Shown here: positions 5,610 to 17,441 of the stretch, in pieces
How the letters are laid out: each line of letters starts with the position of its first letter
How positions within the stretch are numbered: position 1 is the first letter of the stretch
Source of the DNA: Zetaproteobacteria bacterium CG_4_9_14_3_um_filter_54_145
GTDB lineage: Bacteria > Pseudomonadota > Zetaproteobacteria > Mariprofundales > Mariprofundaceae
Assembly (NCBI GenBank): GCA_002791575.1
Contig: PFXI01000016.1
Coordinates: forward strand, 1-45,668
Length of the DNA stretch: 45,668 nucleotides
Reading direction: 5' to 3'
Translations under genes and position numbers: made by a program
The notes under the pieces: generated by a model
Database searches by the model: none
What the model was told of the DNA's origin: nothing
Seen by the model: only the letters and a program-made list of their open reading frames with translations

Positions 5610-6593
5610 TCACCCCTGATTGTTGTGATTGATCAGGTTGATGACCACTTTCACGATGGTGTCTTTCTCCACCGGGCGACTTTCTGCAATTAACAGCGTC
5701 AGCGCCACCAGTGCATTGTCGGGAATGCGCTTCGAGCCATTCAGCCGATAGAGCCGCTTGTGACCAGCCATAAAGCAGAGAAATATTGCTGCTGCAATGC
5801 GTTTGTTGCCATCACTGAAGGCATGATTCTTAACGACGAAGTAGAGTAGGTTTGCAGCCTTTTCTTCCACGCTCGGGTAGACATCCTTACCATCGAACGT
5901 CTGATCAATTGCCCCCAAGGCACTCCTGAAGCCCTGGTCTTTTTCCAAACCGAACAGGCCATCGAACTCGCCCCTCATGGAGGAGACCACCTGCATTGCC
6001 GCATCATAATCGAGAATAAAGCTGGTTGGCTTTGAAATTCCGTTCAAATCCAGGCTGCCATGATCATAGCGGTCCAGTGTGGTCAAAGCATAGGCGTAGT
6101 CTGCGATTACCTTGAGCAGACCTTTTGCCTCATCTTCACCCACAGCCTGATGTGCTACAGTTTTCTCCAGCAGGGCGACCGTATCGCGCAGAGCCATCAG
6201 CTTCTTATTTTGCTCCTGCAGACGCTTCTCATTCAGCGCATAACCGCGAGTAAGATAATCCTTCAGAATCTTGTTTGCCCACTGGCGGAATTGGGTCCCG
6301 CGAAGTGATTTTACGCGATAGCCAACAGAGATGATTACATCCAAACTGAAAAACCTGACTGGCTTGTCAGAACCAGCAATGTGCAAATTTTGCACATTGC
6401 TTTCTTTTTCCAGTTCTCCTTCCTTGAATACATTATTGATATGTTTGGTGATTACAGAACGCTCCCTACCAAACAGGTCTGCTATCTGCACCTGCGAAAG
6501 CCAAACTGTTTCTTCATACAGCCGTACTTCAGTTACAGCTGAACCATCATCAGTCTGATAAATCAGGATTTCGCTTCCGTATTTTTCATTCAT
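5610..6593 (-). CDS. RhuM-family protein with C-terminal Fic/Doc domain
   Basis: The N-terminal half (about residues 1-120) matches the RhuM virulence family, with VWLSQVQIADLFGRERSVI, a helix-turn-helix-like element, and FFSLDVIISVGYRVKS. A coiled segment rich in Lys/Glu/Gln follows (about 120-150). The C-terminal part carries HAFSDGNKRIAA (His at about residue 257), the Doc-type Fic motif HxFxDGNKR, which transfers a nucleotide or phosphate group to a target protein. The start ATG at 6593 has GGAG nine bases upstream; a TTG five codons earlier is possible. The gene is intact and AT-richer than its neighbours, and sits between cobO and the chelatase gene. I infer horizontal acquisition. Cellular role (toxin, phage defence or host factor) is not shown. 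Confidence 0.85.
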   Translation of the reverse strand: MNEKYGSEILIYQTDDGSAVTEVRLYEETVWLSQVQIADLFGRERSVITKHINNVFKEGELEKESNVQNLHIAGSDKPVRFFSLDVIISVGYRVKSLRGTQFRQWANKILKDYLTRGYALNEKRLQEQNKKLMALRDTVALLEKTVAHQAVGEDEAKGLLKVIADYAYALTTLDRYDHGSLDLNGISKPTSFILDYDAAMQVVSSMRGEFDGLFGLEKDQGFRSALGAIDQTFDGKDVYPSVEEKAANLLYFVVKNHAFSDGNKRIAAAIFLCFMAGHKRLYRLNGSKRIPDNALVALTLLIAESRPVEKDTIVKVVINLINHNNQG

Positions 6594-6643
6594 GTTCGGG
6601 TACTCCAATACAGATGCCAGTATGCCCTTCGGGGTTTATTAAT

Positions 6644-7180
6644 TCAAAACTCAATGCCCTGCGTGGCGGAGATGCCGGATTCATAGGCATGTTTCAACAT
6701 CTTCATTTCGGTAACGGTGTCGGCTACCCCGATCACTTCGGGGGCAGCACCCCGGCCGGTGAGAATCATATGCATCCACTTCGGCTTCTCATCACGGATA
6801 AAGGCGGCAATCTCCTCACCGGAGATCCAGCCGTAGCCGGAGCAGTAGTTGATCTCGTCGAAAACCAGCAGGTCAAATTCCTGCGACCGCACCTTCTCCT
6901 TGCACAGCTCCCAGATCTCACGGCTGGTTTTGATATCCTGCTCCGGATTTTTGGTGTCCCAGGTAAAGCCGTCACCAAGTGCATGCCACTCGATATTGTC
7001 GAACTGCTTTGCGGCACGCTCTTCGCCGGTTTTCCATTTGCCCTTGATAAACTGGATCACACACACCTTCATGCCCCAGCCGGCAGCACGAAAGGCTACG
7101 CCGAATGCACTGGATGATTTACCTTTGCCTTCGCCGGTATGCACCAGCACGACGCCCTGGCGTTTATCACGTGATTTCAT
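6644..7180 (-). CDS. cobO: Cob(I)alamin adenosyltransferase (CobO/BtuR type)
   Basis: It adds the adenosyl group from ATP to cob(I)alamin or its precursor, making the coenzyme form. The P-loop HTGEGKGKSSSAFG lies near the N-terminus, followed by QFIKGKWKTGEE and a central FDEINYCSGYGWI, all typical of the CobO/BtuR/CobP fold. The start ATG at 7180 (MKSRDKRQG) has AAGAAGG five bases upstream. A GTG at 7207 would add nine residues but has a poorer ribosome site. About 178 residues is slightly short of E. coli BtuR (196). A perfect dyad separates it from btuD. Confidence 0.92.
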   Translation of the reverse strand: MKSRDKRQGVVLVHTGEGKGKSSSAFGVAFRAAGWGMKVCVIQFIKGKWKTGEERAAKQFDNIEWHALGDGFTWDTKNPEQDIKTSREIWELCKEKVRSQEFDLLVFDEINYCSGYGWISGEEIAAFIRDEKPKWMHMILTGRGAAPEVIGVADTVTEMKMLKHAYESGISATQGIEF

Positions 7181-7224
7181 GGATGCCTTCTTCTTGCATC
7201 CATGCACCCATGGACGTTCATCGA

Positions 7225-7247
7225 AAAATGTTCAGGATGAACATTTT
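7225..7247 (-). promoter_or_regulatory. Perfect 10-bp inverted repeat between btuD and cobO (terminator or operator)
   Basis: AAAATGTTCA and TGAACATTTT are separated by three bases. On the minus strand the hairpin follows the btuD stop by six bases and is followed by a run of five T, so it could work as a weak intrinsic terminator or attenuator ahead of cobO. The stem is AT-rich, so a protein-binding dyad is equally possible. Confidence 0.55.
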
Positions 7248-7253
7248 GTGTCT

Positions 7254-7991
7254 TCATAAATCATCTCCTCCATAATCGGGAACCAGTACAGCCCCCTGAC
7301 CAACTACCGGTGCGTTAAACAGTTGCGACAGCCGCTCACTGTCGAACAGTTGTGTTGCTGTGCCATATTCTGCGGCACCCTTGCCATCAATCAGAATCAG
7401 GTGATCGGCAATCGCCATCGCCTGTTGCAGATCGTGCAATACGGTAACAATGGCACGCCCATGCGCTTTTTGCGCTTTGAGCATATGAATGCATTGAATC
7501 TGATGTTTGAGATCAAGATGTGCCGTCGGCTCATCAAGCAGCCAGACGGGCGTGTCGCGCAGCATCAGCGCTGCCAGCTCTGTACGCTGGCGCTCGCCAC
7601 TGGAGAGCTCACCCAGTGGCCGCTCCAGCAGTGGTGTGATGTCCATGGCCGCGGCCGTCGCCTCGATATTGCTGCCTGCTTCACCGGCGGCAAGAACAAG
7701 ACGCTGTTTGACTGTGAGGCCGAACTCGGTGGGCGGCAGATCACCCTGCCAGGCGATTTGCCGGGTCAACTCACTACGCCTGTATGCGGACAGTGGTTTT
7801 CCTGCCACATCGATATTGCCGCCTGCCGGGATCAGCCCGGCCATGGCCAGCAGCAGGCTCGATTTGCCGGCCCCGTTAGGGCCGAGTACAACGACTACCT
7901 CGCCAGCATGAAACGGGCAGCTGAGAGCTGAGAGCAGCGTTGAGCCACCACGCTCTACCGTCAGATTGGCAAGCATCATCACGATACTCAT
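7254..7991 (-). CDS. btuD: Vitamin B12 ABC transporter, ATP-binding protein
   Basis: This cytoplasmic ATPase drives cobalamin import through BtuC. It shows Walker A LGPNGAGKSSLL, signature LSSGERQRTELA, Walker B VWLLDEPTAHLDL and the switch His in VTVLHDLQ, in the right order. At 245 residues it matches the FecE/BtuD family. The gene starts directly after the btuC stop codon with no gap. FecE-like ATPases for heme or siderophores look alike, so the vitamin assignment rests on btuC, btuF, cobO and the riboswitch nearby. Confidence 0.88.
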   Translation of the reverse strand: MSIVMMLANLTVERGGSTLLSALSCPFHAGEVVVVLGPNGAGKSSLLLAMAGLIPAGGNIDVAGKPLSAYRRSELTRQIAWQGDLPPTEFGLTVKQRLVLAAGEAGSNIEATAAAMDITPLLERPLGELSSGERQRTELAALMLRDTPVWLLDEPTAHLDLKHQIQCIHMLKAQKAHGRAIVTVLHDLQQAMAIADHLILIDGKGAAEYGTATQLFDSERLSQLFNAPVVGQGAVLVPDYGGDDL

Positions 7992-8924
7992 CTAGTTGCG
8001 CCTCAGCAGCAGGAACAGGAATACCGGGACGCCGATCATGGCGGTAAGGATACCCACCGGCAGTTCAGCCGGAGCAATGATTGTGCGGGCAGCCGAGTCC
8101 GCCAGCACCAGCAGCAGGCCGCCGCCGATGGCAGAGGCGGGCAGTACAGCCCTGTGCAGGGAGCCGAAGATAAGCCGCATCAGATGCGGAATCACCAGCC
8201 CGACAAAACCGATGGTGCCGGCTGCCGTCACCGCCAGTGCAGTCACTGCAGATGCCAGTAGCAGCAGGCGTAAGCGCAGCCGTTTAACATCCACACCCAG
8301 TGCCTCGGCATGGCGCTCGCCGAGCAGCAGCTTGTCGAGTGCACCGGAGAGGATAAGACCGCAGGCCAGGGCTATAACCCATGCCAGCAGGAGCAGTGTA
8401 ACAGGCAGATCGGAGTGGGAGAGGTCTCCCATCATCCATGAAAAGGCACGGAACAGCCCCTGCTCGGGCAACAGCGCCAACAACAGGGCCAGCACGGCCG
8501 ACCAGAATGCCGCCAGCACCACACCGGCCAGTAACATACGGTTCGGCCCCAGACGCGAGAAAAACAGCACCGCAACAATACCGACCCAGGCGCCAATAAA
8601 GGCGCCGGCCGACATGACCCATGTCGACTCGGGCATAAACATCAGGCCGGTCACCGCTCCGGCCGATGCGGAACCTGCCACACCCAGCACATAGGGCTCA
8701 GCCAGCGGGTTACCGAGCAAGACCTGAAACCAGGCACCTGCCAGCGCCAGCAGGCCGCCAACAGCAAAAGCCGTGAGCAAGCGCGGCAGTCTCAGCTCCC
8801 ACAGAATGGTGTTTTCCAATCCATTGCCGGCATGGAATGGATTGATCCAGGTGTCGCCTGCTCCAAGGCCGATCAACAGGCAGGCGGCAATGGCGCAGGC
8901 AAGGGCGAACCAGCGCAGCGTCAT
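7992..8924 (-). CDS. btuC: Vitamin B12 ABC transporter, permease
   Basis: This inner-membrane FecCD-family permease has about nine to ten hydrophobic segments across 310 residues. Family motifs include LRLPRLLTAFAVGGLLALAG in the N-terminal third and GTIGFVGLVIPHLMRLIFG before the last helices, followed by ELPVGILTAMIGVPVFLFLL. The start ATG at 8924 (MTLRWFAL) overlaps the stop of a 35-codon ORF by four bases. A GTG at 8951 would add nine polar residues before the first membrane segment. It is adjacent to btuD and shares its strand. Cobalamin specificity is inferred from context. Confidence 0.88.
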   Translation of the reverse strand: MTLRWFALACAIAACLLIGLGAGDTWINPFHAGNGLENTILWELRLPRLLTAFAVGGLLALAGAWFQVLLGNPLAEPYVLGVAGSASAGAVTGLMFMPESTWVMSAGAFIGAWVGIVAVLFFSRLGPNRMLLAGVVLAAFWSAVLALLLALLPEQGLFRAFSWMMGDLSHSDLPVTLLLLAWVIALACGLILSGALDKLLLGERHAEALGVDVKRLRLRLLLLASAVTALAVTAAGTIGFVGLVIPHLMRLIFGSLHRAVLPASAIGGGLLLVLADSAARTIIAPAELPVGILTAMIGVPVFLFLLLRRN

Positions 8925-9028
8925 GGCAGTGCCGCCGCGATCATGCACCAATGCTTGCCGGACTCATCTCCGTGACGATCGAGGCGCGCGAACCATACAT
9001 GGGCGTTCTCGATCAGCGTGATGGGCAT
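8921..9028 (-). CDS. Candidate 35-aa ORF, coupled to btuC
   Basis: The ATG at 9028 has GGAG eight bases upstream. The frame encodes MPITLIENAHVWFARLDRHG followed by 15 more residues, and stops with the TGA of an ATGA that overlaps the btuC start. It lies 19 bases after the stop of the SEC-C gene, so it bridges the cargo and the resumed B12 operon. I do not recognise the peptide. It may be a leader that provides translational coupling for btuC, or the N-terminal scrap of a larger gene. Only the ribosome site and the overlap support it. Confidence 0.4.
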   Translation of the reverse strand: MPITLIENAHVWFARLDRHGDESGKHWCMIAAALP

Positions 9029-9047
9029 CGTTGCAGCTCCATCGTGT

Positions 9048-10907
9048 TCATTTCACCACCTTAGCGATCCGCTTCAGCCAATCGAGTGCGCCGGGCGTCG
9101 ATGCCCAGATGGCGCGGGCGCATTCGCGGTAGTTCCACGCTTCACCCTCGCTGCCGATTGAGATATAGCCGGGGTAAAGGTTTGTCGGCTCTTTCATGCG
9201 CTTGCGCTGCAATGCATCAGGAATACGCGGGGAGTGCGTGATAGCCTCGATCAGCCGTTTGTTCGCGGCATGCTCCTTGCCCAACCGAAACAGGGCCAGC
9301 GCATGACCGAAATTGATACTGACATCGAAGTCTTCCGGATAGTGCGCGCACAGCGCTACGGTGTCATCGTTGCACCCCAGCCGCAGGTAGGTGTTCACCA
9401 CCTCGCTGCGCATCCCCTGATTGTCGTTCGGGTTCAGTCGCAACAACCACTCGCGCATCTCCAACGCCGTTTTGTCTTCATTCAAATTTTCCATGGTATC
9501 GGCAAGAAAGCCGATGACGCGCAGTGCCGGCCGGTTCTCCATGATTGCCCAAACCAGCGGCTGCTCCGGTTGCATCGGAATCAGCGACTTGACCTGAAGC
9601 ATCGCCAGCATGATCAATGGCTGGAAGGTGATGACCGGGTTGGGGCCATCAAGCTGATAAACCGATTGAATCAAATCACCGATCACCACGATGCTGCCTG
9701 CCAGTTCCGGATGTTTTTCGAGCATTTCCAACCACGGATTCGGCTGCTCCCACATCTCCTCATTTTGACAGATCAGATCGTTCCACTGCCCAAGCAGTTT
9801 GGCGCTCGCCCGGTTTTTTGGCACGATTTGGCAGCAATCATCAAAGATGTGCATTTTCTCCATGGCTTCGGGCGGCTTCTTTATCGCCTGCTGCAGCCAT
9901 GTGACCAGATGCCCGACGCCCGGCGTCAATTGATCATGCAGTGCACCCATCGTTGAAGAGGTATCGGAAATCATTCCCTGAATCATGTCTATGAGTTCGT
10001 CGAGTTCACCGCTCCGGTTCATGCCGTTCAGACGCTTAAGCCAGTATTTTCCGCGCTGCTGCATCTGATCGACCTTGCCCTGTTGCATCAGCAGCAGCAA
10101 TTCCAGATGACTGAGCGCCGGATTGTTGGGATCCAGCCGCTGGGCCTGCTGGAAACAGGCCCACGCCTCATCATTCTTACCCTGATCGCCCAGAATACAG
10201 CACTGACGATGCAATGCGGTTGCCTGCAACACCTTGTTCGGATGGGCCATGAAGCGTCTGATCAGGGCACTCTTTTTGCGCGGCTTGTCCAGCAGATCGC
10301 ATAGCTCAAACATGGCATCGAGCGCTGTTTCATCACGGTGATCCAGCTTCGCGTCGTCCTGCCTGAAGATCGGCTCCAGCATCATCAGGGCGCGGTTTGC
10401 CATATCTTCATCTTCACGCATCCATGTTGATGCAATGATCCCCAGCGCCATATGCGGCAGGTGCAGCCATGCCTGTTTCAGCTCAGCCTGGGTTCCGATC
10501 TCCAGCATGATGGCAGTCATGAGACCGGAGGAAATTTCAGGTATGCCTTCACGCCCCATGCGCGCGCAGCACTGTTTGAATTTTCTGCCGGAGCCACACA
10601 GACAGGGATCATTGCGTTTGGGCTCAGGGAGGGGGAGCGGTCGAAAATCATTCGACGGCAGTGGCGTGATATTCCAAATCTGAATAGCGAACAATCGCGC
10701 TACCCGGCGCAACTCTTCAGCGTTCTCAATATTCAGGTGCTCGAAAAAAGCGAAGAAATTTTCAGTGGCCAGAAATGAGAAATAATCAATAAACCGCTGT
10801 GCATCGGGATCGCAATTGCGTATATGGTTTGCCGCCTCGCGCAGCATATCCTGGAAGTCATCAATGAATTCATCGCTCAACTCATCGTCCATCATATCCA
10901 TTGTCAC
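9048..10907 (-). CDS. SEC-C motif, TPR-like helical-repeat protein of unknown function
   Basis: The 619-residue protein is acidic at the start (MDMMDDELSDEFIDDFQDML). A SEC-C zinc-binding motif at about residues 98-115, RNDPCLCGSGRKFKQCC, follows; this motif occurs at the end of SecA and in many uncharacterised proteins. The remaining 500 residues are helical with TPR-like segments (for example KNDEAWACFQQAQRLDPNNP). No catalytic motif is seen. The start is either the GTG at 10907, overlapping the previous stop (GTGA) with GGAGG four bases upstream, or the ATG two codons later. It is full-length in appearance and lies between broken defence-type genes and btuC. Its job is unknown; association with neighbouring mobile genes is inference. 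Confidence 0.8.
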   Translation of the reverse strand: MTMDMMDDELSDEFIDDFQDMLREAANHIRNCDPDAQRFIDYFSFLATENFFAFFEHLNIENAEELRRVARLFAIQIWNITPLPSNDFRPLPLPEPKRNDPCLCGSGRKFKQCCARMGREGIPEISSGLMTAIMLEIGTQAELKQAWLHLPHMALGIIASTWMREDEDMANRALMMLEPIFRQDDAKLDHRDETALDAMFELCDLLDKPRKKSALIRRFMAHPNKVLQATALHRQCCILGDQGKNDEAWACFQQAQRLDPNNPALSHLELLLLMQQGKVDQMQQRGKYWLKRLNGMNRSGELDELIDMIQGMISDTSSTMGALHDQLTPGVGHLVTWLQQAIKKPPEAMEKMHIFDDCCQIVPKNRASAKLLGQWNDLICQNEEMWEQPNPWLEMLEKHPELAGSIVVIGDLIQSVYQLDGPNPVITFQPLIMLAMLQVKSLIPMQPEQPLVWAIMENRPALRVIGFLADTMENLNEDKTALEMREWLLRLNPNDNQGMRSEVVNTYLRLGCNDDTVALCAHYPEDFDVSINFGHALALFRLGKEHAANKRLIEAITHSPRIPDALQRKRMKEPTNLYPGYISIGSEGEAWNYRECARAIWASTPGALDWLKRIAKVVK

Positions 10908-11458
10908 TTGCCCTCCATCACCATCAATTCTTGTGTTCGCTCAACCAATTTCGTATCAGCCTTTTGATTTATCTGCATCTTGTTACAACCCTGGATATCA
11001 TGCGCAAAACAAGACCAGGCACCACTACTCAATACGTAAGCGGTATTCGCCTTATCTATGCCCAACGAATTGTCGGTTCGTTTTGAATAATCGTCATTGG
11101 CTTTGGTTGAAATGTTTTTGTCTGCTCCCATTTCCCAAACAGAACAGCCAATAGGCACCCATGCATTCCCGGAGACGACATCCAAAATGCCATCGTATCC
11201 AAACTTCTGAATGCCCTCCCCTGAAGGGAAATCAATTCTTGAGGTTTGATCTAATTTTACTGTCGCAGTTATCAATCTACGAACAAGCTCTGGCAATGAA
11301 GATCGAGCATCTAAAGTCTCTGCCCACCGTGCAATATCAGTTCCATCAATCTGTTTCATGTCAATATTACTGGATGAAAATTCATCCGCCGATTCGAACA
11401 TCGAAAAGATGATTTTTTGATACTCGTCCAACTCAATTTGTGACTCACTGCGTCCCAT
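10904..11458 (-). pseudogene. N-terminal stump of a large defence-type protein (probable nuclease domain)
   Basis: Recognisable sequence begins near residue 34 (MKQIDGTDIARWAETLDARS, possible start at 11359). It continues with LPELVRRLITA, DFPSGEGIQKFGYDG, then GNAWVPIGCSVWEMG and KANDDYSKRT. From memory this pattern opens large (over 1,000-residue) proteins found in defence islands, where it looks like a PD-(D/E)XK-type domain. Here similarity appears to stop at NTAYV, and 42 unrelated-looking residues end in a TGA that overlaps the SEC-C gene start. Its upstream codons overlap the YhcG fragment in another frame. AT-rich. It could be a remnant or a shortened stand-alone protein; the neat coupling to the next gene keeps the second option open. 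Confidence 0.55.
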
Positions 11459-11763
11459 TTTGGAAAACAGAGATAAAAGCTGCGCATGTTGCGTAAATTA
11501 CTGGCGTCAAAACCTTTACCGAACTCGGCTGTCAGTTGTTTGGAAAGCGTTTGCAACTGCTGCTTGCCATAGGCTGCGCGGCTGTTGCCCTGCTGTTCAT
11601 GTTCGACGATTAAACGGCCAATCTGCCAATAGCTTTGCACCATGACCTGATTGACGGCCTGCTGCACCTGATAGCGTGCCTGCCGGATGATTTCGGCAAT
11701 GTCCCGGAAGAGCAGGTGTGCATCATCTGTAGACGGCTGTTTTATATTTATCTGCTCACTCAA
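11356..11763 (-). pseudogene. YhcG/DUF1016 N-terminal fragment
   Basis: From the TTG at 11763 (ribosome site GGGGGG just upstream) the protein reads SEQINIKQPSTDDAHLLFRD, then SYWQIGRLIVEHEQ, AAYGKQQLQTLSKQLTAEFG and NLRNMRSFYL, which is the conserved N-terminal DUF1016 domain of YhcG-type PD-(D/E)XK proteins. Similarity continues to KLSWT (about position 11425) and then is lost; the frame ends 22 residues later. Intact YhcG is about 350 residues with the nuclease at the C-terminus, so the nuclease domain is missing. It lies 66 bases after the cobQ stop and is clearly inserted material. Confidence 0.8.
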
Positions 11764-11829
11764 ACAACACCCCCCCTTAAAACAGAGTGACTTTATGCGC
11801 TTTGCCGAGATCAGCAAGCAGGCAGCTTA

Positions 11830-13290
11830 TCATGGCCTGAGCTCACTGCTCTGCCGGTTTAGTGGCGAGGTAAGCAGGGGAGCCAGCAGCTCCGGTTTCA
11901 GGTTAGCCTCAAGACTGTCGGCCAGCAGATCGAGTGAGGCGAGTGTTCGTTCGCGCTGATCCTTACCATCGCTGGCGGCAAAGCCGATCCCGGCAAGCCA
12001 CGCCTTGCGAAAACCACCCTGCTCGAAGAGGCCGTGCAGGTAGCTGCCCCAAACCAGCCCGTCTTCCGATCTGCATGCAAACGGAAAGAGTGCCGCATCG
12101 CTGTCTGATTCGCCGTGATGAATCTCGTAGCCTGTGACCCGTTCGCCGGTAAAACAGGCAGATGGCCGGTCCACTCTGGTCAGCTTTTTCTGCGCGCGCA
12201 TCGTGGTTGCAAGCGGCAGCCAGCCGAGTCCTTCGGCACTGCCGCCCTCCACGCCATCATCTTCAATCACCATGCCGAGCATCTGCATGCCGCCGCAGAT
12301 GCCCAGCACTTTGCCGTCGTAGCGCAGGTGGCGTGCCAGCGCCGGCACAAAGCCGCTCTGACGCAGCCATGCAAGATCCGAGGCCACATGCTTGGAGCCG
12401 GGCAGGATAATCAGGTCGGCAGCATGCAGCTCTTTGGCCGAACGGACAAAGCGCAGGCTTACACCGGCCTCCGATGCCAGCGGATCAATATCGTCATGGT
12501 TCGACATGCGCGGCAAGGCAATCACGGCTATGTGAAACAGGTCGGATGAAAGATGGGAGATGCTAGATGCCGTATGCCGGTAGGGGGCATCCTCTTCCGG
12601 CAGCTCCAGTGCTAGCCAGGGAATCACACCGGCAACCGGTCGCTCTGTTTTCTGCTCCAGCCAGACCAGTGCATCATCGAGCAGGGCGAGGTTGCCGCGA
12701 AAGCGGTTGATCAGCAGTGCCTTTACCCGTGCATTCTCGGAATCGGAGAGGATAGCAAGTGAGCCGGTGAGGGCTGCAAATACGCCGCCGCAATCGATGT
12801 CGCCCACCAGCCAGACAGGCACATCAGCCGCTTCGGCAAAGCCCATATTGGCAATGTCACCCTCGCGCAGGTTCGGCTCGGCCGGTGAGCCTGCCCCCTC
12901 AACAATCACTACATCGTATTGGGCCTGCAGCAGTGCAAACGACTCCAGCACCATCTGCAGCCAGCCGATGCGATCTTCCCGGAAGCGGCTGGCATGCAGC
13001 GCTCCGACAACCTGACCACGCACAACCAGTTGCGCCTGCTCATCGGCTTCCGGTTTGATCAGTACAGGATTCATATGCACGCTCGGCTCAATGCCACAGG
13101 CAAACGCCTGTAGTGCCTGGGCACGCCCGATTTCGCCACCATCAATGGTGACGGCCGCATTATTACTCATATTTTGTGGTTTAAATGGCGCCACGCGCAC
13201 GCCGTTTCTGGCCAGCAGTCGGCACAAGCCTGCGACCAGCACCGACTTACCTACCCCGGAAGCGGTTCCCTGAATCATCAGGCTTTTCAT
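11830..13290 (-). CDS. cobQ: Cobyric acid synthase
   Basis: It amidates four carboxyl groups of adenosylcobyrinate a,c-diamide using glutamine and ATP. The N-terminal synthetase half begins with the P-loop-like MIQGTASGVGKSVLVAGLCR and FKPQNMSNNA. The C-terminal glutamine amidotransferase half has the nucleophile Cys332 in VLGICGGMQMLG, then GYEIHHGES and His419 in GSYLHGLF. At 486 residues it is full-length (Salmonella CbiP is 506). Its upstream neighbour btuF is separated by about 100 bases holding two inverted copies of an intergenic repeat. Its downstream neighbour is inserted defence-type DNA. Confidence 0.95.
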   Translation of the reverse strand: MKSLMIQGTASGVGKSVLVAGLCRLLARNGVRVAPFKPQNMSNNAAVTIDGGEIGRAQALQAFACGIEPSVHMNPVLIKPEADEQAQLVVRGQVVGALHASRFREDRIGWLQMVLESFALLQAQYDVVIVEGAGSPAEPNLREGDIANMGFAEAADVPVWLVGDIDCGGVFAALTGSLAILSDSENARVKALLINRFRGNLALLDDALVWLEQKTERPVAGVIPWLALELPEEDAPYRHTASSISHLSSDLFHIAVIALPRMSNHDDIDPLASEAGVSLRFVRSAKELHAADLIILPGSKHVASDLAWLRQSGFVPALARHLRYDGKVLGICGGMQMLGMVIEDDGVEGGSAEGLGWLPLATTMRAQKKLTRVDRPSACFTGERVTGYEIHHGESDSDAALFPFACRSEDGLVWGSYLHGLFEQGGFRKAWLAGIGFAASDGKDQRERTLASLDLLADSLEANLKPELLAPLLTSPLNRQSSELRP

Positions 13291-13390: not shown

Positions 13391-14230
13391 TCATGGATTT
13401 TGCCTTGCCTCTGCGTTCCTTTGCGTCCTCTGCGGTGGAAGGTTTTTGTTCTGCAGCGCCTGCTGCAACAACTCCAGGCCGTCGAGCAGGCGCGGGCCGG
13501 GGCGGTGCAGCAGGTCGGGGTTAATGGCGGCAAAACGGATGTTCCCCTTGCCCAGCCACTGCTCCCAGAATGCGCGCCGGCCTTCAATATCGCGTTTTTC
13601 CAGCGGAATGATAATCAGTGCCGGCCGTGCACGAACCACCGATTCAACATTCACGTGTGGCGTTTCAACATTGATCCCGGCAAAGATATTGCTGCCGCCC
13701 GCCTCATGAACGAGGTCGGAGATAAAGCTGGGGCCACCTGCGGTCAGTAGAGGATCACTCCACACCTCATAAAAGACCGCCGTGCCGGAGCGGGGGCGAG
13801 AGCGAACCTGTTGCAAGCGCTGACGCAACCCGGCAACGACGGACGCCGCGGTGTCCGGGTGGTCGGTCACAGCGCCGAGCTTGAGCAGGTCATTGAACAT
13901 TGCATCAAAGCTGGCCGGGTTGGAAACAATGATACGTACGCCCATTTTCTTCAGCATGTTTACGCCGCTGATGTTACGGTTTATCACCACCGCGATATCC
14001 GGTTTCAGGCGCAGAGCTGCCTCGACATTGATACCATTATAACTGCCGACGCGCGGCAGTTTTTTTGCTGCAGCCGGGTAATCGCAGAAGGAGACCGCGC
14101 CCACCAGCTGCGGGCCGGCGCCGATAGCATAGAGCATTTCACAGGCGTGCGGCGCGAGCGCCAGAATACGCGTCTCGGCCCATGCGCTGCCGGAAAAACA
14201 GCAGGCCAGCAGCATGATGAGGGCTTTCAC
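13391..14230 (-). CDS. btuF: Cobalamin ABC transporter, periplasmic binding protein
   Basis: The periplasmic protein captures vitamin B12 for BtuCD. A signal peptide covers about residues 1-18 (ending AWA-ET). The Peripla_BP_2 pattern follows: ILALAPHACEMLYAIGAGPQ, then DYPAAAKKLPRVGSYNGINV, LKPDIAVV, and a second lobe with AGGPSFISDLVHEAGGSNIF. The start GTG overlaps the tonB stop (GTGA). The last 14 or so residues (PQRTQRNAEAR-type) are encoded by a dispersed intergenic repeat, so the original stop was probably lost and the tail is not functional. 279 residues is close to family size (266 in E. coli). Heme or siderophore binding proteins are alternatives, disfavoured by context. Confidence 0.88.
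   Translation of the reverse strand: MKALIMLLACCFSGSAWAETRILALAPHACEMLYAIGAGPQLVGAVSFCDYPAAAKKLPRVGSYNGINVEAALRLKPDIAVVINRNISGVNMLKKMGVRIIVSNPASFDAMFNDLLKLGAVTDHPDTAASVVAGLRQRLQQVRSRPRSGTAVFYEVWSDPLLTAGGPSFISDLVHEAGGSNIFAGINVETPHVNVESVVRARPALIIIPLEKRDIEGRRAFWEQWLGKGNIRFAAINPDLLHRPGPRLLDGLELLQQALQNKNLPPQRTQRNAEARQNP
13408..13436 (-). repeat. Intergenic repeat, copy 2, reaching into the btuF 3' end
   Basis: Read on the minus strand it begins ACCGCAGAGGACGCAAAGG. It forms an inverted pair with copy 1, about 80 bases apart, and encodes part of the last residues of BtuF (PQRTQRNAEAR). The pair could fold as a hairpin in the btuF-cobQ transcript. Confidence 0.6.
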
Positions 14231-14997
14231 AGCCGCTTGAACCGCAAGCGAAACTGATATTGACCATCCTCGGCAGGAAAGGGCTGGGCCCGGTGGACTG
14301 TCTCCAGTGCCGCATGGTCGAGTACGGCATGACCGGAACCGTGCAGTACTGTGACCTGATCGGCTGTGCCGTTGTGAGTCAGCGTAAAGCCGACATCAAC
14401 ATCCCCTTCGATGTTACGCCGACGCGCACTGGCCGGATAAAACTTGAATGACTCCAGATGATCGCGCAATAGCAGGCGCATCTTCGCCTTGTCGATGGCT
14501 GTTGCCTTTGCAGCCTTAATTTGCTGCGGCTCTATTGCCGGCTGAGCCGCTGCCGGCATATGTGATACAGGCTCAATGGCAGCCGAGAGCGCAGTCGGGG
14601 CGGCCTGTGCCACAGTTGCAATCGGTGTGGCCGCGGGTGTTGTGCTGCGGACAACCGATGGTTCCGGTACGGATTGTGCCGGTTGCGGCGTAACGGGTGG
14701 ATGCTGTGACGTTTTCCTTATAACGGGTGGAACGGGATGTGCCGGTATCGGTCGGGTTGGCTGGCTTACAGGCCTTGAGTCGATGTTGAGCAGTTCGATC
14801 ATGACTGTTTCACCGGCCGTGGTCGCAGGTTGATGCAGTTGCAACCATCCGCCCAGCAACAGGCCATGGATGGCGGCACTGGCAGCCAGCCATGGCCAGA
14901 AGCGGAAAAATCTAGAAAGAATAGCTGGCTCCGGCGCGGAAGCTTGCTGTTGGTGCCGGGTAGAATGAATCGCCGCTGAATGCGGAGAATACACCAT
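14227..14997 (-). CDS. tonB: TonB-family energy transducer
   Basis: TonB passes energy from the proton-driven ExbBD complex to outer-membrane receptors. One membrane helix (about residues 32-55, FWPWLAASAAIHGLLLGGWL) is followed by a proline-rich stretch (PTRPIPAHPVPPV, about 80-110), an Ala/Pro linker, and a C-terminal TonB domain with FYPASARRRNIEGDVDVGFT and PFPAEDGQYQFRLRF. ExbB and ExbD are not in the window. The only in-frame ATG/GTG starts (14997 or 14994) lie inside the btuB 3' end, giving an unusual overlap of about 85 bases; an ATT near the btuB stop is another option. It is probably dedicated to the neighbouring BtuB receptor. Confidence 0.88.
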   Translation of the reverse strand: MVYSPHSAAIHSTRHQQQASAPEPAILSRFFRFWPWLAASAAIHGLLLGGWLQLHQPATTAGETVMIELLNIDSRPVSQPTRPIPAHPVPPVIRKTSQHPPVTPQPAQSVPEPSVVRSTTPAATPIATVAQAAPTALSAAIEPVSHMPAAAQPAIEPQQIKAAKATAIDKAKMRLLLRDHLESFKFYPASARRRNIEGDVDVGFTLTHNGTADQVTVLHGSGHAVLDHAALETVHRAQPFPAEDGQYQFRLRFKRL

Positions 14998-16846
14998 AAT
15001 TGCTGTATTTCTTTCCGGTCAGGTTATCCACGCGTGCGAACATGTCGATATCCTGCCAGTGATAATTGATCACTGCATTTACAGTCAGATAGGCTGGCAG
15101 GCGCGGACGGGCGTTGGCCTGATCACTGATCAGAAATGATGAGCCGACATAAGTGAGTTGAAGGCTGCTGGAGAGTCCCTGCAGCCAGTCGGCCTGCCAA
15201 TTGGCGCCGAAGCGGTTGCGTGCTACGGCAGGGATGCTTTTGCCGCTGGAAATGCCGCCACGGAAACTGGCCTTGCTGTAGGTATAGTTGGCGGATAATT
15301 GGAGTAAATCATGCGCACGCCAGTGACCGCCGAGCACGATCACATCATGACGTGTCCTGGCTGCATAATTTTCATTGGCGCCGAAACCGAATGCGCCGCC
15401 CACCGGGTTATAATAAATCTCATGGTTCAGATCGGCGCGACTGGCGCTGGCCTCCAGCCAGGCGGATTTGAGGTCGTAACGCAGGCTGGTGCTGTAATGA
15501 CGGCCGGTCTGTGTTTTCAGCGTACTGTCTACGGTGCCGGAAAAGAAGCTGAAGCGCTCATCCAGCAGCGGGAAGCGCATGGAGCTGGCAGCATTCAGTC
15601 TCAGTCGCAGCTGATCGGTCAGGCCCAGTGAGGCGCCGGCATCCCAGGCGCTTGCCTGATTGGCAATAGCACTGACGCCACCTTTGGTGAAGCTGTCGCG
15701 CATGCGCTCGTTGCGCAGGCCGCCATTTACAGACCAGCTGTTATCGGCAGCGCTGACCGTCAATTCACCGTAATAACCGTCACGTTTGTGGTCGAAGTCG
15801 GTATTGCCGACAGCGCCGCCAAAATTAAACGAACCATTGCCGCGATCAATATCGGCACCGGCCACAATACGGCTGACGATGTCAGTGCCGGTAGTGAATG
15901 TGAGTTTTGGGCGCAGGGATGCATTGCGTTGAACAAAATCACTGACCGATGCAAAGCTGATAAATTCCGAGTGCACATCACGGCGCCGAAAACCGCCGGC
16001 AATATCCGCCTCCAGCCCGAAATCCGACAGCCAGTTTATACCGCCATCGATATAGTTGTCGGTTGTGCGACTGAAGTTCTGAGGCGTAGTCGCCTGCTTG
16101 CGGTTGGCTGTCATCTGCGCGCGGCTCAGGGCACCGGGTAAGCCGGCCCGGTCACGGTGATGATTGCCGGAAATGTGCAGGCTCAGGTTGTCTGTGAAAT
16201 CGGCTTCTGCCCGTGCGCCACCATCGAAGCGGTCAAAGAAGCCGTTGTCGCGATAGCCCTTGCTGGTCAGGCCGGAGAAATTTGCCTCCATGCGCGTTTT
16301 GCCTGCATCGGCGCCGATTCGCCCCTGGCTCGAAAATTCGCCGAAGCTGCCGCCGGCCAGATTGATGCTGCCTCCGGAGGCGGGTACTTTTGTAATGATA
16401 TTGATGACGCCGCCGACTGCCCCGTTGCCGTAGAGAACAGCGTTGGCACCATGTACAATTTCAATGCGTTCAATCTGATCCAGTGGAATCTGTGCCCAGT
16501 CGGTGCCGGAGAGATCCGGATTATTGATCCGGCGTCCATCGATCAGTACAACACTGTTGGCTGCGGCCGATTCGCCGAAACCACCCAGATCCACCTGCGA
16601 TTTTGCCCCGACCCCGGAGGTGTCGCGGACAACAATATTAGCTTGTCCCTTGAGCAGATCGACAACCGTTGCAGCATGAGAGGATTCGATGGCCTGCCTG
16701 TCGATAACGGTTACCGGTCGTGATGATGTGATGGATGGTGCAGCAACCCTGCCTGCTGTGACATTCAGCTCACCGAGATCCTGCGTTTGAGCCATAGCTG
16801 TTGCCGGCATCACCGCCATCAGCCATAAAATATGTTTCAGTTTCAT
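14912..16846 (-). CDS. btuB: TonB-dependent outer-membrane receptor for cobalamin
   Basis: This outer-membrane beta-barrel takes up corrinoids. The start ATG at 16846 gives a clear signal peptide (MKLKHILWLMAVMPATAMAQ) with AGGA upstream; the frame is open 65 codons further but that part has no signal or similarity. The mature N-terminus holds a TonB-box-like segment (DLGELNVTA), then a plug domain (VVDLLKGQANIVVRDTSG, IERIEIVHGANAVLYG, GGVINIITK) and a barrel ending RAGASYSF with a terminal aromatic. At 644 residues it is near E. coli BtuB (614). A cobalamin riboswitch upstream on the same strand supports the substrate assignment and predicts repression by B12. Confidence 0.92.
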   Translation of the reverse strand: MKLKHILWLMAVMPATAMAQTQDLGELNVTAGRVAAPSITSSRPVTVIDRQAIESSHAATVVDLLKGQANIVVRDTSGVGAKSQVDLGGFGESAAANSVVLIDGRRINNPDLSGTDWAQIPLDQIERIEIVHGANAVLYGNGAVGGVINIITKVPASGGSINLAGGSFGEFSSQGRIGADAGKTRMEANFSGLTSKGYRDNGFFDRFDGGARAEADFTDNLSLHISGNHHRDRAGLPGALSRAQMTANRKQATTPQNFSRTTDNYIDGGINWLSDFGLEADIAGGFRRRDVHSEFISFASVSDFVQRNASLRPKLTFTTGTDIVSRIVAGADIDRGNGSFNFGGAVGNTDFDHKRDGYYGELTVSAADNSWSVNGGLRNERMRDSFTKGGVSAIANQASAWDAGASLGLTDQLRLRLNAASSMRFPLLDERFSFFSGTVDSTLKTQTGRHYSTSLRYDLKSAWLEASASRADLNHEIYYNPVGGAFGFGANENYAARTRHDVIVLGGHWRAHDLLQLSANYTYSKASFRGGISSGKSIPAVARNRFGANWQADWLQGLSSSLQLTYVGSSFLISDQANARPRLPAYLTVNAVINYHWQDIDMFARVDNLTGKKYSNYGVFSAFSGDSFYPAPTASFRAGASYSF

Positions 16847-17134
16847 TGTCTTTTCCTTTCGCGCCCGCCGCGCATATACAAGTTTTGGCGGTTGTGATTG
16901 TCGGGAAAGGTGGGTGTACGGATCGGAAGGAGCGGTAATGCGCGCCAACTGTTCCGGCACTACCTCCCTCCGAGGTCTCAAACCGATGGCATGCGAGGGT
17001 GTCCGATTTTTCTCCTCTGGCGCTGCTGCTGTGCTGCTCAAATGCTCACATACAGAAAGTATGCTCCGCTTTTGCGCTGCTCGCGCCTTACCAGAGGCTG
17101 AAAACCAAACACCTCACTATCGTCATACCGTGTT
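16847..17134 (-). other. Long structured leader between riboswitch and btuB
   Basis: About 290 bases of transcript separate the B12 box from the btuB ATG, with no convincing gene. It contains a large imperfect inverted repeat, CCTCTGG at 17014-17020 with CCAGAGG at 17091-17097 and inner pairing of CGC with GCG. At its centre is a small hairpin, CATAC-N5-GTATG (17048-17062). This may be the expression platform or a small inserted palindromic repeat. No U-run terminator was recognised. Confidence 0.5.
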
Positions 17135-17315
17135 TCGGGCCGGTCTCCTGGCTTGCCTTCATCCGCGGCTGTTCTCCTTCCCGGTTTCCCTGTGGGTATA
17201 AACAGCGTTGTCAGGCCTACAGTAGCGGGGGCTGCGCCGGAATTGACTGACAGATCAATCGTACCGGACTTCCCGTTTCATCCCTTTGCCGAACGGCATC
17301 GGAACACCCAAAACG
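17135..17315 (-). ncRNA. Cobalamin riboswitch
   Basis: Read on the minus strand, conserved blocks appear in order: GGTGTTCCGATGCC, GGCAAAGGGATGAA, GGGAAGTCCGGT, GCGCAGCCCCCGCTACTGTA, a P5/P6-type region with AAACCGGGAAGG, and the B12 box AAGCCAGGAGACCGGCCC (about 17137-17154). This is the class that binds adenosylcobalamin or its relatives and lowers expression downstream. It lies about 290 bases upstream of btuB and probably controls btuB, tonB, btuF and cobQ. Boundaries are approximate because P1 was not folded. Confidence 0.93.
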
Positions 17316-17441
17316 GCGCGAAGTCTAGCCATATGTCGAACTTCCGTCCATCTGCCTGCGCCATGTCATGCAACGGCCGCATGCATTGGTCGGGTGAGAG
17401 GTCTATAGTGTTGGCGATAAAGACGGTGTGGCGGGGGTAGT

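Follow-up and report, generated by a model that had tools for sequence, protein, structure and literature searches.

Does an intact gene that stands directly behind two broken defence genes belong with them, or with the genes on either side? The window analysed here, a stretch of 45,668 nt from the Zetaproteobacteria bacterium CG_4_9_14_3_um_filter_54_145 (contig PFXI01000016.1), raises this question at positions 9048 to 10907 of the minus strand, where a gene for a 619-aa protein with SEC-C and TPR matches lies among truncated ORFs. A sequence-only reading took it for the only full-length gene of a cargo at 9.0–11.8 kb and proposed that it may be an active component or accessory of an undescribed defence system. 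We followed the gene through its own sequence, the operon around it, the other genomes of the order and its relatives outside the order.

Results

The gene is intact and constrained

The ORF at 9048–10907 has 619 codons from GTG to stop, and its GTG start overlaps the stop of the upstream ORF (GTGA). A GGAGG lies 4 nt ahead of this GTG and 10 nt ahead of an in-frame ATG two codons on, and the ORF of Mariprofundus erugo P3 (G002) starts at the position aligned with the start of ours. The M. erugo protein, from the same genus, is the nearest named relative (74% identity). Compared with M. erugo (300 codons) the gene has a dN/dS (NG86) of ~0.13, and compared with G016 (259 codons) one of 0.14, so it encodes a real, constrained protein under strong purifying selection. 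With its SEC-C and TPR matches, the gene is what the sequence-only reading had called it: an intact SEC-C/TPR-like gene with a good ribosome site.

Domain content of the 619-aa protein

The SEC-C model of Pfam (PF02810, E 6e-9) matched residues 98–116, encoded at 10560–10616 on the minus strand, with 36 bits against a gathering score of 20.4, which places the protein in this family. The four cysteines of its C-x-C-x8-C-C knuckle (residues 102, 104, 113 and 114) are invariant in all 15 aligned relatives; SEC-C was matched in 15 of these and the TPR_19 model in 12. TPR matches lie within residues 192–293, the best of them at about 229–266. Besides SEC-C and TPR, Pfam returned nothing, and in particular no enzyme signature, and a search of NCBIfam at E 1 gave no cobalamin model, so that the protein falls in no known cobalamin enzyme family there.

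The same knuckle is found in the C-terminal metal-binding domain of SecA, in E. coli YecA (AscA) and in YchJ, and a profile of the family searched against the PDB matched the knuckles of SecA and YchJ. Unlike in these proteins, the knuckle of the 619-aa protein stands near the N-terminus and is followed by long TPR modules, and there is no SecA motor domain. The UPF0149/YecA domain was not found by Pfam at E 1, and NCBIfam models of such knuckle proteins scored far below their cut-offs; one of them, PRK10396, which we take to be YecA, matched residues 39–115 with 31 bits against 149. The profile also gave a weak match to the TPR of SRP72 over residues 469–559 (E 4e-4), and 5 of the 15 family members matched Tcf25; because cross-matches among TPR proteins are common, these two likenesses suggest little about function.

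The protein appears to be built from two modules. Module A (about residues 1–300) holds SEC-C and TPR, and module B extends over about residues 360–619; the approximate boundary between them (9827–10007, minus strand) follows from sliding identity, from two relatives limited to module A (315 aa in G039 and 312 aa in G193) and from stand-alone relatives of module B. Module B matched 419 plasmid records, all at <60% identity, in proteins of 236–340 aa, and among the 20 matches listed the identity to residues 443–619 was 31–34%. These plasmid TPR proteins, from enterobacteria and Rhizobium (e.g. WP_004187050), share module B with the 619-aa protein but show no match to the SEC-C module, and their annotation gives no function. 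Such stand-alone proteins occur on several hundred plasmids, mostly enterobacterial (an example is L023 7692–8486), and in all four stretches that were read, transposase genes lie within 4 kb of the gene.

A structure prediction had been proposed as a way to see whether the protein has an enzyme fold. The AlphaFold model, made from an alignment of two sequences, consists of helical repeats with no enzyme fold at a mean pLDDT of 53, and at this low confidence little weight is given to the best 50 Foldseek matches listed, which are mostly TPR and other helical-repeat proteins.

Searches for an origin in other replicons or in known defence families were negative. Patterns made from the single 619-aa protein matched no viral contig; with the family profile at least 230 loci in viral contigs were confirmed, the best 80 of which match over short stretches including the knuckle. 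No phage record matched, and a viral origin was rejected. E. coli gave no DNA match to the gene. PADLOC models produced five weak matches, four within residues 95–120 and one, PDC-S12, over residues 37–115 (E 9e-6). All of these are at E 9e-6 or worse and end in the knuckle, and the gene was therefore rejected as a defence component by family match.

The gene lies within a cobalamin operon

A cobalamin riboswitch aptamer (RF00174, 90.7 bits) at 17121–17326 on the minus strand stands at the head of an operon on the same strand. Behind it follow genes for a btuB-like TonB-dependent receptor (14912–17041), a tonB-like protein (14227–14997), a btuF-like periplasmic binding protein (13391–14230) and the cobyric acid synthase cobQ (11830–13290). 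Then come two truncated ORFs and the SEC-C/TPR gene, and behind these a btuC-type permease (7992–8951, with a probable start at ATG 8924), a btuD-type ATPase (7254–7991) and the adenosyltransferase cobO/btuR (6644–7207). A RhuM-Fic protein gene (5610–6608) behind cobO is a second defence-type insert in the operon. From btuB to btuC all genes run on one strand with gaps of at most 100 nt behind the riboswitch, a layout that fits co-transcription and riboswitch control of the SEC-C/TPR gene.

Both ORFs upstream of the gene are truncated, in agreement with the earlier statement that the neighbouring defence genes are broken. The ORF at 11356–11817 is an N-terminal fragment of YhcG (DUF1016) that covers positions 1–105 of the 137 of the DUF1016_N profile; Pfam found no YhcG_C nuclease domain in it. 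The ORF at 10904–11458 encodes 184 aa and matched no family in Pfam, NCBIfam or PADLOC, and its residues 37–143 align weakly (31%) with proteins of 1269 aa in G067 and G084. The 1269-aa protein of G067, which has no Pfam match, shares its locus (L209 935–10040) with an N6 DNA methylase, a type I specificity subunit and a YhcG that is intact; a 1269-aa protein with the same start occurs in L210 without the methylase, YhcG and specificity genes. The idea of a cargo at 9.0–11.8 kb needs to be narrowed. The SEC-C/TPR gene is indeed the sole intact gene between cobQ and btuC, but the cargo occupies only ~10.9–11.8 kb, inside the cobalamin operon to which the gene itself belongs.

Directly behind the SEC-C/TPR gene, a 35-codon ORF (8921–9028, minus strand), whose stop is overlapped by the probable start of btuC, is a relic of cobU in which the start of CobU is fused to a match of CobU residues 37–66. 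Its first residues, MPITLI, are the start of CobU in three listed CobU proteins, and its residues 5–34 align with CobU residues 37–66 (47% identity to G011). Against eight CobU proteins it scores 54–81; none of 2000 shuffles reached the score for seven of them, and for the eighth, from M. erugo, 1 of 2000 did. Against six further proteins encoded in the M. erugo operon the scores are 23–29. As a source of this stretch cobS was rejected on its poor fit, and it was internal residues of CobU that fitted. The relic implies that cobU formerly followed the SEC-C/TPR gene, as it does in M. erugo.

Searches of the window genome, which is 99% complete, for CobU at E 1e-15 and for CbiB at E 1e-10 found neither, and the operon examined is without cobT, cobC and cobS. 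The genome keeps cobQ, cobO and the B12 importer. The cargo occupies the place that cbiB–cobD has in other genomes; it need not have caused the loss of CbiB, since G003, G011 and G026, without such cargo, also lack CbiB.

Distribution within the order

The gene was found in 10 of 78 genomes of the order (E 1e-20), in 11 copies. Nine of the copies touch a cobalamin gene (in the window genome, G000, and in M. erugo, G016, G013, G005, G033, G039, G067 and G068, the copy of G068 being decayed), so that its position between cobalamin genes is conserved. The copy of G028 shares its strand with cobQ, which lies ~10 kb upstream, and a second copy of G005, 33% identical, has no B12 neighbour. The order cobD–gene–cobU occurs in three lineages (G033, G039 and G067) with no defence gene at the junction; in G039 the gene overlaps cobD by 8 nt, and in G067 13 nt separate the two. 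The distance from the gene to cobU is ~0.5 kb in G033 and 18 nt in M. erugo, where the order is gene–cobU–cobT–cobC–cobS–btuC. Without the gene, cobD and cobU are joined directly in eleven loci (L072, L073, L075, L077–L080, L082, L083, L100 and L102), and cobQ and btuC in two (L087 and L088).

These positions invite the reading that the protein serves as a scaffold or metal chaperone for late cobalamin steps, either in a CbiB–CobD–CobU–CobS complex or in cobalt handling. The recurrence of cobD–gene–cobU in three lineages, the neighbourhood of gene and cobU in M. erugo and the predicted metal binding of the knuckle are consistent with it. However, the gene is kept where CobU was not found, in the window genome, G016 and G028 (G016 being only 86% complete), and is thus not tied to nucleotide-loop assembly; in the window genome, with neither a CobU nor a CbiB match, it is intact at a dN/dS of ~0.13. 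In addition, the direct junctions of cobD and cobU in genomes without the gene, and the location of relatives outside the order in other places, speak against such a role, which we regard as unlikely. Since only 10 of 78 genomes carry it, the gene is not needed for B12 metabolism.

Defence cargo in the B12 operons

In this order, defence-type genes recur as inserts in the B12 operons, often on the strand of the operon and with very short gaps. Cargo-bearing B12 loci are the window (5610–11817), L021 (6094–9862), L030, L072, L074, L086, L087, L090, L096, L201, L204 and L205. The locus of M. erugo holds an intact YhcG and an intact nSTAND3 with an Mrr domain, and G016 has a NACHT STAND of 1334 aa with a 73% relative in G022; in both M. 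erugo and G016 the STAND gene lies directly upstream of the SEC-C/TPR gene. An SNF2-SWIM helicase is present in the B12 loci of G028 and G022, a Wadjet JetD lies 39 nt to 1.8 kb upstream of cobQ in G013, G016, G028 and G022, a JetA-like DUF3375 gene lies behind cobS in G005, and a piece of a type I restriction gene (HsdR) lies upstream of cobQ in G039. RhuM-Fic-type genes are found behind cobO or beside cobQ in the window, G005, G016, G012, G026, G010 and G014; those of G016, G012, G026, G010 and, cut short, G014 stand behind cobO and are relatives of the window gene.

The enrichment beside nucleases, STAND proteins or YhcG that the sequence-only reading had named as support for a defence role was observed within the order, at the level of the B12 locus or its contig. 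B12 loci were fetched from 43 genomes. Of the 10 that have the gene, 7 carry defence-type ORFs in the locus, compared with 6 of the 33 that lack it (Fisher p 0.004), in a count that draws its references mostly from loci with the gene, ignores kinship and includes many fragmented assemblies. Two of the references, here labelled AlbA2 and orf1335, are not defence-matched and occur only in genomes that are otherwise positive (G016, G028 and G022). YhcG and the B12 locus share a contig in 5 of the 10 gene-bearing genomes and in 1 of the other 68 (p 7e-5), and within the genus alone in 4 of 5 and 1 of 18, respectively (p 0.003), where contig numbers decided what counted as the same contig and kinship is again ignored. 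Because the references come mostly from gene-bearing loci and the genomes are related, these p-values are too small.

Concomitantly, the cargo is not constant. The gene immediately upstream is variously the truncated 184-aa ORF, nSTAND3-Mrr, NACHT STAND or one of two unknown ORFs; in other genomes its place is taken by cobD (three times) or, judged by eye, a phosphoesterase-like ORF. Downstream genes vary as well, and no partner gene was constant across the genomes. No defence gene lies directly beside the SEC-C/TPR gene in G005, G033, G039 and G067; in G005 and G039 defence-type genes are present at other places of the B12 locus, and the contigs of G033 and G067 extend over no more than 5 and 7 kb, where distant cargo could be missed. 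Cargo directly before btuC also occurs without the gene, in G022 and G007 (NACHT or YhcG). In five genomes YhcG or STAND genes share the operon or locus with the SEC-C/TPR gene, but they have no domain in common with the 619-aa protein. The surroundings of the gene are thus rich in defence genes but include no fixed defence partner.

Relatives outside the order

A sample of 398 genomes across the phylum yielded 20 with a match (E 1e-12), 10 of which belong to the order of the window; in a sample of the class, 16 of 369 genomes matched at E 1e-15, four being shared with the phylum sample. In L058, a locus of family f28 (8 matching genomes in the phylum sample), genes for a topoisomerase and an ABC1 kinase stand beside the gene, and similar neighbours were recognised by eye in several further f28 loci. 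In L114 and L116 the relative stands by metG (by eye; two methionyl-tRNA synthetases were matched), and in L057 and L111 by a HipA-like gene. No cobalamin linkage was seen by eye around the relatives outside the order.

Neighbours were also searched with family models. The near set comprised 93 ORFs within 3.5 kb in 17 of the 22 fetched loci, with L059, L060, L061, L063 and L067, all of one family, left out, and the far set comprised 88 ORFs 4–8 kb away, for which the best 25 of 113 families were listed; both sets include some overlapping shadow ORFs from G+C-rich loci, and the output counts families, not proteins. In the near set no PADLOC family was matched by more than 2 of the 93 ORFs. HipA_C matched 2, and single matches went to a type I methylase, PDC-S01, a nickase and similar models. 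The enrichment seen within the order has no counterpart in a repeated PADLOC partner in these 17 loci. Homologues found mainly in housekeeping contexts had been named as the outcome that would speak against a defence role, and the relatives outside the order, which lie largely in housekeeping places, come close to this.

Mosaic alleles

Residues 1–300 of the window protein are 77–87% identical to M. erugo and 37–80% to G016 in sliding windows, whereas from residue 361 on the identity is 77–92% to G016 and 57–78% to M. erugo. Downstream, the btuC of the window is 92.6% identical to that of G016. The break at residues ~300–360 coincides with the boundary between modules A and B. A tree of btuC–btuD–cobO from six genomes did not settle the branching, and the incongruence is argued from the sliding identities. 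Most simply, recombination inside the SEC-C/TPR gene would have exchanged the upstream cargo; the gene would then be the edge, and not the content, of the variable stretch.

Discussion

Our results suggest that the intact SEC-C/TPR gene most likely does not form part of the broken defence cassette, and that the defence genes are intruders in a B12 operon. The gene stands between B12 genes, the cargo lies between cobQ and the gene, and cobU was reduced to a relic while the gene stayed intact, which together point to an accessory member of the operon. As a whole, we tentatively favour an explanation in which an accessory B12-operon member acts as an adaptor, with a SecA-type knuckle and TPR modules, at the ribosome or in an export pathway. 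Membership of the B12 operon is the well-supported part of this explanation. The adaptor mechanism is suggested by domain content, and SEC-C and TPR are both generic. An observation counting against the explanation is that defence cargo and the SEC-C/TPR gene co-occur more than expected.

Known SEC-C proteins indicate how such an adaptor may work. According to the available text of PMC6620043, the metal-binding domain of SecA interacts with 70S ribosomes. In the available text of PMC8076867, YecA, with a near-identical domain, was proposed in un-peer-reviewed work as a chaperone that interacts with SecB, and other SEC-C proteins were said to be possible Sec accessories. SatS (PMC6333443) was considered as an export-chaperone parallel and set aside, since the available text was found to contain no mention of SEC-C or TPR. 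By analogy, the 619-aa protein would be a cytosolic two-module adaptor, whose SecA/YecA-type knuckle is a putative binding site for Zn or Fe and may dock on the ribosome, SecB or nascent chains like the knuckle of SecA. The TPR solenoids would hold clients and so assist their folding or export. Plausible clients are the exported or membrane products of the operon (BtuB, TonB, BtuF and BtuC). The function is probably general, because no tie to B12 is seen in the relatives outside the order.

A role as a defence accessory has the co-occurrence counts and the directly upstream STAND genes of G016 and M. erugo in its favour: the protein would be a helper or sensor for the YhcG or STAND cargo that repeatedly enters the B12 operon, and would have outlasted the decay of the nucleases. 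However, the upstream gene changes from genome to genome, four genomes have no adjacent defence gene, cargo precedes btuC in genomes that lack the gene, PADLOC gives weak matches over stretches that end in the knuckle, no PADLOC family was matched by more than 2 of the 93 near ORFs outside the order, and the p-values are too small; 9 of the 11 copies touch cobalamin genes. The earlier claim is partly supported, and we consider this role rather improbable.

A third possibility is that the gene is a selfish or neutral passenger of the B12 operon: it would recombine as an accessory gene and travel along without a function tied to the operon. Its patchy occurrence, its mosaic alleles, its two positions (before cobU or before btuC) and the decayed copy of G068 are all compatible with this. 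Strong purifying selection and the conserved knuckle, however, imply a function somewhere, and we give a passenger only a small chance of being the right account.

A more far-reaching reading is that the B12 operon of these iron bacteria is a B12-sensing defence operon. Under this reading, the riboswitch would open when cobalamin is scarce, BtuB would be made, and YhcG, STAND or RhuM-Fic genes on the same mRNA would be made along with it; the SEC-C/TPR protein would be a resident accessory, acting as folding helper or regulator and remaining in place as cargo comes and goes. In E. coli, BtuB is a receptor for phages and colicins. The cobalamin riboswitches of the window (17121–17326) and of M. 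erugo (L021 1–169) head operons with same-strand defence-type genes. In M. erugo 19 genes follow the riboswitch on its strand, never more than 138 nt apart; YhcG, nSTAND3 and the SEC-C/TPR gene are among them. The layout of the window and of M. erugo allows this reading, and a promoter-like site before the M. erugo YhcG (L021 6021–6049) speaks against it, though such sites were rarer there than in shuffled sequence (6 found, against a mean of 12.3). We hold such an operon to be quite improbable, the least likely of the readings weighed here. Titles and abstract starts in a limited library, searched with limited wording, gave nothing on the SEC-C/TPR gene, on defence genes in cobalamin operons, or on YhcG or nSTAND3 with a cobalamin riboswitch.

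The accessory membership of the SEC-C/TPR gene in the B12 operon removes a false lead, namely that of an orphan survivor of a broken defence system. Proteins of unknown function with a SecA-type knuckle and TPR modules are given a home in B12 operons, and it is in these operons, too, that anti-phage genes repeatedly settle. Riboswitch control of the cargo, if it exists, would link phage defence to nutrient state by way of the operon from which the outer-membrane port BtuB is made.
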